Positions 30,150 through 32,737 of a stretch of DNA of 40,331 bases are shown here, in pieces. The notes under the pieces are model-generated. The model worked only from the letters and a program-made list of their open reading frames with translations. It was not told the DNA's origin and did not search any database. Within the stretch, counting starts at the first letter, position 1; each line of letters opens with the position of its first letter. Location: positions 1-40,331 of the forward strand of contig CAIPWR010000019.1 of the NCBI GenBank assembly GCA_903868795.1, written 5' to 3'. The stretch comes from an uncultured Spartobacteria bacterium (GTDB lineage: Bacteria; Verrucomicrobiota; Verrucomicrobiia; Chthoniobacterales; UBA6821). The translations under genes and the position numbers were made by a program.

Positions 30150-32594
30150 TTAAAACTCAGCCGGTTTTGGCGTCGGAATCGTCAAGGCCGGCGCGGCACT
30201 TGGTAGATCCATGGGAGTGACGGGCTCTGCCTTTCTCACCTCTTTCTCAGCGACCGGGAGGGCAATTGCAACATTCGTAGCATTCTGACCACCTTTCCCA
30301 TCGGCCCCGGGATCCTTTCCATCCGGCGTTGTGGCACGTGCTACCTTGATGCTCGGATCATCCGCAGCTCCCACGCTCAAGGTGGGATTCACGGAGCGGT
30401 AGAGATCGTTCTGAGCTAGCAAGGTGGGAGCATTGACAGGAATGGGACGCACCCTACTCAGATCCACCGCCGCAGCTGCCCTGGGCCACTCGGCCTGATC
30501 GACATCACGATTATAACTCCGCACCCCTCCCCCATGAATATCGCAGACCCCGGTGGGCATCTCCGCCTCCGTGGCATACTCGGTGGCGATCATACCGGTC
30601 AGTTTGCGACATCCTTCCGCGGGGATCAGACCGGAACTTCTGCAGATCTCGACCTTCTTGAGTCCGGAGGGAAGCTCACGTTCACAGGCTGGAAATCCTG
30701 AGAACGAGGCATTCATCACTTGGGCCCAGATCGGAAGGGCGAGATCCTTACCGAAAGCCCCGCAGTAGATCTTCTGCGGCTTGTCGAATCCGACCCAAAC
30801 GCCGCAAGTCACGGCGCTCGAGTAGCCCACGAACCACGTGTCGGTGAAGTTGTACGCCGTCCCGGATTTACCGGCCAGCGGTGCATTTGTTGAAACCCCC
30901 GAGGCAGCCGCCTCTTGAGCACACGCTTTAAAGAGAGCATCCTGCAGAACGGTATGGACCTGATAGGAGGCCTCCGCAGGGAGCACCTCGACACGAGCCA
31001 CGGGATTCTCGTAAAGCAGATTACCCTCCTGATCGGTGATCCGGGTAATGGTGAAGAGCTTGGCCGGACGAGATCCCCCTCCCGGGAAAGCCGTATAGGC
31101 AAGAGTCAGCTCATCAAGAGACATCTCACTCGAGCCGAGATACGCATTGGCCACATCACGGAGCGGGGAACGAATGCCGGCGGATTTACAAAACTCACCC
31201 AGCTTATCGAGTCCGGTCTTATACCCTAGGCGAATGACGGCAGCATTCTTCCCCCTCGCAACCGCTTCATGCGAAGGCATCGGCCCCTCGTATTCATTAT
31301 CAGCGCGTTCCACTCCCCATTCTCCCAAGATCCCGTTATCTCCCCCGATCATGACGAAGTGATTGTCGATGCAGTCATCGTCAACCGGCTCTCCCGGAAA
31401 AACTCCGTTCGCATAGGCGGCTGCGGCCACCAGTGGAGTAAAGAGCGTCCCCGGCGGACGGCGCCCCTGAACGGCGCGGTTGTATTCGCTATGCAGAAAG
31501 TCACGTCCACCAGCAACCGCCAGAATGCCTCCGGTGGCATTCTCCACCGCGAGGACTGCACCTTGGAGATATCCGGGTGATGGCATCGTGACAGGTTCTC
31601 CACGCTGCGCAGCCTCTTCCATCTTCTCGTTGATCTGATGATATTGCTGATAGGTGATATGACCGAACCCAGGCTGGCTCTCTACCTCCGCTAGGTGGCT
31701 TTTCACCGCACGCTCCGCAGTCATCTGGAGCTTGGCATCGAAGGTCGTCTGAATCTGCACCCCCTCATTCATCGCTGTGTCATAGCCCAAAGCCGCGATG
31801 GCCTGCTGGCGAACAAGATCGATCGCATAAGAGATCCTGTTGGGATTGGTCCTCTTGCGAACCGAGAGATTCAGTTCGATTGCTCCATCATATTCCTCAC
31901 GCGTGATCAGATGCATCTCCCGCATGCGACCGAGGACGAAATCACGAACCTTCTTCGCCCCTGTAGGATTATTCCATGGAGAGTAATAGTTGGGGCTCTT
32001 CAGCAAACCAGCGAGCATGGCGCACTCTCCGACACTGAGATCCTTGGCAGCCTTCCAGAAATAGCCTCTGGCCGCAGCCTCCACCCCGTAGAACCCGCTC
32101 CCGAAGTAGACGCGATTCAGGTAATACTCCATGATCTTCTCCTTAGTGAGATGATCCTCGATGCGCTGTGCCAGGAACATTTCCAGAAGCTTGCGGCGAT
32201 AGCTCTTCTCATGGAGATCGAATGAGTTCCGCGCCAACTGCTGGGTCACCGTACTGGCTCCCTGCTTCACCTTTCCCTGATGCCAGTTACTCATCGCCGC
32301 ACGCAGAACCCCGAAGTAATCGACTCCATGATGTTCGAAGAACCTATTATCCTCCTCGGCCACCACGGCATTCACCATCTCCTTTGGAATCTGGTCATAA
32401 GGAATGGGGAGACGGTTCTGGATAAAAATCTTGCCCATCTGCTGTCCGTTGCGATCCAGAATCACACTTGCCGACTCCATCTTGGGAATCTTCGCCAGAT
32501 CAAAGGCTTCGGCCTTGGCCTTGAACTCGGAAACCAGCCAACCATAGACAATCAGGGCCCCCAAAGCGGCAAGGATCAGGAGGGTAACGGGCAC
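30150..32594 (-). CDS. Class A penicillin-binding protein (GT51 + degenerate transpeptidase)
   Basis: An 814-aa inner-membrane protein. After one TM segment (LLILAALGALIVYGWLV), the GT51 domain is intact: AVVAEEDNRFFEHHGVDYFG with the catalytic Glu, KQGASTVTQQLARNSFDLHE and FLAQRIEDHLTKEKIMEYYL. It should polymerise lipid II into glycan strands. In the transpeptidase domain the nucleophile motif, normally PGSxFKP, reads PPGTLFTP; SxN reads GKN; only KSGTA is normal. Crosslinking activity is therefore doubtful. The C-terminal 150 residues are a Pro/Ala-rich tail. The frame stays open for 27 codons upstream of GTG 32594 (RHRYSWEEKSERRRKPWF) without a start, while ATG 32688/32679 lies one frame off, so a base insertion may have separated the true start. 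It is last in the minus-strand sugar gene run. Confidence 0.88.
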   Translation of the reverse strand: MPVTLLILAALGALIVYGWLVSEFKAKAEAFDLAKIPKMESASVILDRNGQQMGKIFIQNRLPIPYDQIPKEMVNAVVAEEDNRFFEHHGVDYFGVLRAAMSNWHQGKVKQGASTVTQQLARNSFDLHEKSYRRKLLEMFLAQRIEDHLTKEKIMEYYLNRVYFGSGFYGVEAAARGYFWKAAKDLSVGECAMLAGLLKSPNYYSPWNNPTGAKKVRDFVLGRMREMHLITREEYDGAIELNLSVRKRTNPNRISYAIDLVRQQAIAALGYDTAMNEGVQIQTTFDAKLQMTAERAVKSHLAEVESQPGFGHITYQQYHQINEKMEEAAQRGEPVTMPSPGYLQGAVLAVENATGGILAVAGGRDFLHSEYNRAVQGRRPPGTLFTPLVAAAAYANGVFPGEPVDDDCIDNHFVMIGGDNGILGEWGVERADNEYEGPMPSHEAVARGKNAAVIRLGYKTGLDKLGEFCKSAGIRSPLRDVANAYLGSSEMSLDELTLAYTAFPGGGSRPAKLFTITRITDQEGNLLYENPVARVEVLPAEASYQVHTVLQDALFKACAQEAAASGVSTNAPLAGKSGTAYNFTDTWFVGYSSAVTCGVWVGFDKPQKIYCGAFGKDLALPIWAQVMNASFSGFPACERELPSGLKKVEICRSSGLIPAEGCRKLTGMIATEYATEAEMPTGVCDIHGGGVRSYNRDVDQAEWPRAAAAVDLSRVRPIPVNAPTLLAQNDLYRSVNPTLSVGAADDPSIKVARATTPDGKDPGADGKGGQNATNVAIALPVAEKEVRKAEPVTPMDLPSAAPALTIPTPKPAEF

Positions 32595-32737
32595 AAAAAA
32601 CCAGAGCCGCAGAAACCATGGTTTCCGGCGACGTTCACTCTTTTCTTCCCAGCTGTAGCGATGACGTGCGATCCGTCATCTTTTCCATGAAACCCCTCCT
32701 CGGGCAAGCAATCAGGAAGGGGCTAAAGGGGTGTTTG

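Follow-up and report, generated by a model that had tools for sequence, protein, structure and literature searches.

A class A penicillin-binding protein of Verrucomicrobiota with an intact glycosyltransferase domain and a conserved, apparently inactive transpeptidase fold

Can a class A penicillin-binding protein (PBP) that has lost catalytic motifs of its transpeptidase (TP) domain be a maintained protein, and what would it then do in the cell wall? The question is raised by an open reading frame at positions 30150-32594, on the minus strand (as are all features described below) of a 40,331-nt stretch of DNA from an uncultured Spartobacteria bacterium, the whole of which is called the window here. 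The frame is genuine, with 814 codons (814 aa) and no internal stop; residues are numbered from its GTG at 32594. The encoded protein has the architecture of a class A PBP: an N-terminal membrane helix predicted by the AlphaFold model (residues 2-29; 32508-32591) is followed by a GT51 glycosyltransferase (GT) domain (residues 51-224; 31923-32444; Pfam Transgly PF00912, 2.9e-63) and then by a C-terminal TP fold (residues 345-600; 30795-31562; Pfam Transpeptidase PF00905, 2.4e-13, above the cut-off). Both catalytic glutamates of GT51 are there, E81 of EDNRFF and the Glu of RRKLLE. The best NCBIfam model was TIGR02074 (PBP_1a_fam), at 466.1 bits and below its curated cut-off of 508.75, which leaves the protein outside that family as the model defines it. 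The AlphaFold model, built with 65 sequences (mean pLDDT 82.6), had PBP1b and PBP1a as its top Foldseek matches and aligned with Pseudomonas aeruginosa PBP1A (4oon) over 379 residues (Z 45.7, rmsd 1.8). The TP fold is thus predicted to be intact.

To place the motifs we used a residue-by-residue alignment with 4oon. PGTLFTP aligns to PGSSFKP, so that TLFT (T383-T386; 31437-31448) stands in place of SxxK, with T383 (31446-31448) at the nucleophilic Ser and T386 at the Lys. GKN (residues 448-450; 31245-31253) aligns to the SRN of KSRN and puts G448 at the Ser of SxN, while GKSGTA aligns to GKTGTT; N450, K576, and G578 are kept. The TP domain has neither SxxK nor SxN, and of the three D,D-transpeptidase motifs it retains K[TS]G (KSGTA; KSG, residues 576-578, 30861-30869). 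This alignment and the Pfam matches bear out the sequence-only reading, which had described the replacement of SxxK by TLFT and of SxN by GKN in a domain otherwise kept together with KSGTA. We also checked for another SxxK that might occupy the active site. None was found in the TP domain; Ser-x-x-Lys strings occur in the whole protein only at residues 22, 244, and 643. In the AlphaFold model T383 lies at the start of a predicted helix (382-395), and its pocket position is taken from the sequence alignment and this helix start, not from fold comparison. Acyl-enzyme chemistry in PBPs requires both the Ser and the Lys of SxxK. With these two residues and the Ser of SxN missing, the window protein is unlikely to form an acyl-enzyme, and hence to act as a D,D-transpeptidase or to bind beta-lactams; it is probably beta-lactam-blind.

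Whether the TxxT replacement is lineage-wide, as the sequence-only reading had asked, could be answered positively: TLFT or a close variant occurs in relatives from 97 to about 34% identity. A match to the window protein was obtained in 94 of the 97 relatives searched, a count that includes canonical paralogues. The named relatives all belong to Spartobacteria/Chthoniobacterales; Chthoniobacter flavus Ellin428 (L164) is one of them. Within the class, 58 of 188 sampled genomes carry the variant, distributed as 27/30 in the order Chthoniobacterales, 25/25 in family f15, and 6/6 in family f35; for f15 the motif was read in 19 of the 25 genomes, while the assignment of G113, G150, G165, G177, G196, and G211 used score and frame length. 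No matches outside the class were found at 1e-60 in a phylum sample of 288. Family f15 includes a genome (G184) that we take as Akkermansia muciniphila ATCC BAA-835; one of its M60 peptidases (L288) matches PDB 7sci over 486 residues without any visible difference, whereas PDB comparison of two others (L278, L284) did not help to identify the strain. Its variant has TAIL, SKI, and KTGT, and its paralogue SLFK, SRN, and KTGT. In the available portion of PMC8406291, Akkermansia is described as having kept class A PBPs and the variant is not mentioned. In three genomes that are 99-100% complete, G110 and G118 (family f24) and G028 (0.9 Mb, from the window's order), no GT51 gene was found. In addition, the variant gene L076 (G096:C10) changes frame after residue 592, through a frameshift or an assembly error, and an open frame of 24349 residues was reported around the canonical paralogue at G014:C1:127002-127841, perhaps because of an N run or a masked stretch.

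The TP domain also carries a nearly invariant, family-specific loop, DNHFVMIGGDNGILGEWGVE (residues 410-429; 31308-31367). The pattern DN...GG..G..GEW is present in all members of the variant clade, whereas canonical paralogues show W.P.N.D there; among the displayed paralogues from Chthoniobacterales, f15, and f35, the majority have the W.P.N.D type in the loop's place. The near-invariant GEWG (residues 424-427; 31314-31325) has the lowest model confidence within the folded domain (pLDDT <50), as would be expected if the loop depended on a ligand or a partner. A motif census covered 191 distinct sequences, of which 141 have, between the first and the second motif, the strict loop GG..G..GEWG.E; three incomplete rows (L091, L094, L256) were set aside. 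In the strict-loop set the nucleophile position is Thr in 140 sequences and Ser in one, and the Lys position is T in 62, L in 31, K in 24, V in 12, I in 4, F in 3, A in 2, and G, Q, or H in one each. Both Ser and Lys are absent from 117/141, and Lys is kept together with Thr in 23/141. At SxN we read GKN 64 times, SKN 47, SKI 22, SHN 3, SKV 2, and AKN, SRT, and GRN once each, so the Ser is gone in 66/141; KTGT or KSGT is present in 129/141. The 47 rows without the strict loop comprise two clade members with a variant loop and a Thr nucleophile (L237 and L259, with TAFF and TAFL), two with a GEWA loop and SxxK (L088, L089), and 43 canonical sequences, all with SxxK. Across the clade, Thr occupies the nucleophile position in 142 of 145 distinct sequences: a hydroxyl residue is nearly fixed there instead of varying freely, a pattern compatible with a structural role as well as with some remaining chemistry.

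Three sequences, L088, L089, and L174, lie inside the variant clade yet have SxxK, SKN, and KTG. Judged by these motifs they are possible regained transpeptidases and could be active. Given this group and the 23 of 141 sequences that keep Lys with Thr, it may be that not all members are inactive.

A tree of 95 rows, made by a quick method with the SxxK and SxN columns excluded, placed 70 variant rows on one side of a branch and 25 canonical rows on the other (SH-aLRT 100). The set contains no split or cut genes; those omitted are L091-L094, L133, the genome's own paralogue (L005 and L006), and the second fragment of L076. The tree requires three changes between Ser and Thr, six at Lys, and five at the Ser of SxN. 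The simplest reading is one basal change from Ser to Thr, two returns to Ser near C. flavus (L164), and repeated loss of Lys, though the count alone cannot prove direction. Pairwise dN/dS (Nei-Gojobori, 10 pairs) was 0.00-0.084 for the TP domain and 0.00-0.078 for the GT domain, and mean column identity was 61% across 52 TP domains. The low TP values indicate that the altered domain is being maintained: it is under strong purifying selection, and the motif loss is neither an error nor local decay. What these data add to the sequence-only reading is the age and breadth of the loss: the variant is ancient, maintained by selection throughout a clade, equipped with its own loop, and found in Akkermansia too. 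Among the 92 loci searched (L117-L196, L227-L238), the neighbors zwf (11 loci), opcA (11), nagA (9), galK (6), and galT (4) are shared only by close relatives, so the gene context gives no function.

The frame upstream of GTG 32594 proved to be conserved protein back to an ATC at 32672-32670. A stop stands two codons before this ATC, and no ATG, GTG, or TTG lies between it and GTG 32594, a codon that borders the membrane helix. Since the upstream frame is conserved and GTG 32594 is not, the coding region very probably reaches from ATC 32672 to the stop (30150-32672; 840 aa), with codon conservation in relatives pointing to a probable AUC initiation codon at 32670-32672. For this comparison we used 52 variant genes with an N-terminal Y-x-W anchor; unanchored genes, including those of C. 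flavus and Akkermansia, were left out. The codon five positions before the anchor Tyr is ATC in 35, ATA in 4, ATT in 1, and ATG in 7 genes, and the other 5 have ATG at minus three; strain LR76 (L144) is one of the carriers of the ATC start. Upstream of the window's ATC lies a promoter-like pair (32679-32707): counted from the A of this codon, TTGCCC begins at -35 and AAAAGA is found near -12. A TTG begins 37-34 bases upstream in 35 of the 40 non-ATG cases and, after removal of near-copies, in 21 of 25 (mean 1.9, maximum 7, in 1000 shuffles). The non-ATG cases also have an A-rich stretch near -10, and an SD-like string close to the ATC was seen in 1/40. This pattern fits a promoter whose transcript would start at or near the AUC, that is, a leaderless mRNA with putative non-AUG initiation (AUC, also AUA and AUU). 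Our literature search for an AUC start codon returned eukaryotic reports only. A start by programmed frameshift from an upstream ATG (32688-32686, after AGGAGG in the window) was set aside; in most genomes having such an ATG, GTG, or TTG its distance to the ATC is 16, 17, or 18, and the frame that it opens ends at differing lengths.

If the window protein does not crosslink, other enzymes of the same cell should. A whole-genome search with PF00905 gave six places: three class B PBPs (SVFK or STFK), the window gene, and one canonical class A PBP in two pieces, split over contigs C110 and C67. This paralogue likewise has GT51 and TP domains and is about 39% identical to the window protein, but its SSAK, SRN, and KTG are intact; GT51 occurs in these two genes only. 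The genome also has eight YkuD (L,D-transpeptidase) places, including two partial ones; the class-wide count gave seven for it. The sequence-only reading had suggested that crosslinking is left to other PBPs or L,D-transpeptidases, and enzymes of both kinds are indeed encoded in this genome and may do so. At least two class A matches were present in 57 of the 58 carriers; in the remaining one, G032, no second class A match was found at 1e-20, perhaps owing to an assembly gap. In the class sample, the median number of YkuD places is 9 in carriers (range 4-18, n=58) and 2 in non-carriers (0-12, n=130), a comparison whose test value ignores relatedness. As carriers represent few independent lineages and the association is confounded by descent, we regard it as a lead. 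Counter to a strict link, variant-free f20 genomes have 6-8 YkuD places, and one f39 genome has 12.

Taken together, we consider it likely that the window protein is a membrane-anchored class A PBP whose intact GT51 domain polymerizes lipid II and which does not crosslink, its TP domain having become a fixed pseudoenzyme in the ancestor of a Verrucomicrobiota clade. All 169 rows with complete motifs retain the two GT glutamates, which makes glycan polymerization likely. The TP domain would form no acyl-enzyme and so bind no beta-lactam; it may serve as a structural or binding module for the nascent strand, the stem peptide, or a partner, and crosslinks would come from the canonical class A PBP, from class B PBPs, and from the YkuD L,D-transpeptidases, which are numerous. 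The sequence-only reading had already proposed a polymerase of this kind with a pseudo-transpeptidase. The intact GT domain, the lost SxxK and SxN, the kept fold, and the lineage-wide, selected distribution speak for this proposal, which is supported in part; inactivity may fail for some members.

Of the alternatives, a working transpeptidase or carboxypeptidase with Thr383 as nucleophile and K576 or K449 as base is unlikely. The fixation of Thr in 140 of the 141 loop-bearing sequences, the kept KTG-type motif, the 23 sequences with Lys, and the two returns to Ser that the tree requires within the clade would suit it. Against it, the Lys position holds one of nine residues other than Lys in 117/141 and the SxN Ser is lost in 66/141, while PBP chemistry requires Ser and Lys. 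One could also imagine that the pocket has gained another catalytic activity centered on the GEWG loop and nearby acidic residues, the loop being near-invariant, missing from canonical paralogues, and located between the SxxK and SxN positions. We recognized no known catalytic motif in it, however, and because residues 424-427 are poorly modeled (pLDDT <50) the pocket placement of the loop is putative; such an activity seems distinctly improbable.

A purely regulatory, non-catalytic role of the entire protein toward the canonical paralogue, which is nearly always encoded alongside (57 of 58 carriers), is in our judgment very improbable, as it conflicts with the invariant GT glutamate pair (169/169) and the low GT dN/dS. 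A degenerating paralogue or an assembly artefact could be argued from motif loss alone and from the one frameshifted copy (L076), but is already contradicted by full-length frames in dozens of independent genomes, single-contig ones included, by low dN/dS, and by the single ancient clade, and its probability is close to negligible. A bolder version of the pseudoenzyme reading is put forward tentatively, as a possibility that we ourselves doubt: the Verrucomicrobiota clade to which Akkermansia belongs would keep a dedicated, beta-lactam-blind polymerase whose TP domain, rebuilt around GEWG, serves as a docking module for L,D-transpeptidases or as a sensor of nascent strands, and which in the window's lineage is expressed from a leaderless, AUC-start mRNA.

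Compared with known systems, the window protein shares with canonical class A PBPs (Escherichia coli PBP1B, P. aeruginosa PBP1A 4oon, Acinetobacter baumannii PBP1a) the membrane anchor, GT51 catalytic residues, PBP TP fold, and KTG-type motif, and differs from them in the loss of SxxK and SxN, the GEWG loop, and its sub-threshold TIGR02074 score. Monofunctional glycosyltransferases (NCBIfam TIGR02070), such as MtgA and SgtB, are likewise expected to have GT activity only, but are devoid of any TP domain, whereas the window protein keeps a full TP-fold domain. The laboratory point mutant E. coli PBP1B(S510A), with active GT and inactive TP, is described in PMC6428754 as preventing lysis and feeding strands to LdtD. 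It is a precedent for a useful TP-dead class A PBP, although in the window protein GT activity is predicted and the loss arose in nature, long ago, and together with other changes. No earlier report of such a family was found in the open-access full texts searched.

Natural class A PBPs with a conserved, apparently dead TP domain would represent an evolutionary split of the two halves of the enzyme, as S510A does in the laboratory, and would make roles of the TP domain besides crosslinking testable. They bear on the beta-lactam response and wall structure of Akkermansia and of soil and freshwater Verrucomicrobiota, and would mean that the capacity for D,D-crosslinking is overestimated when class A PBP genes are counted.
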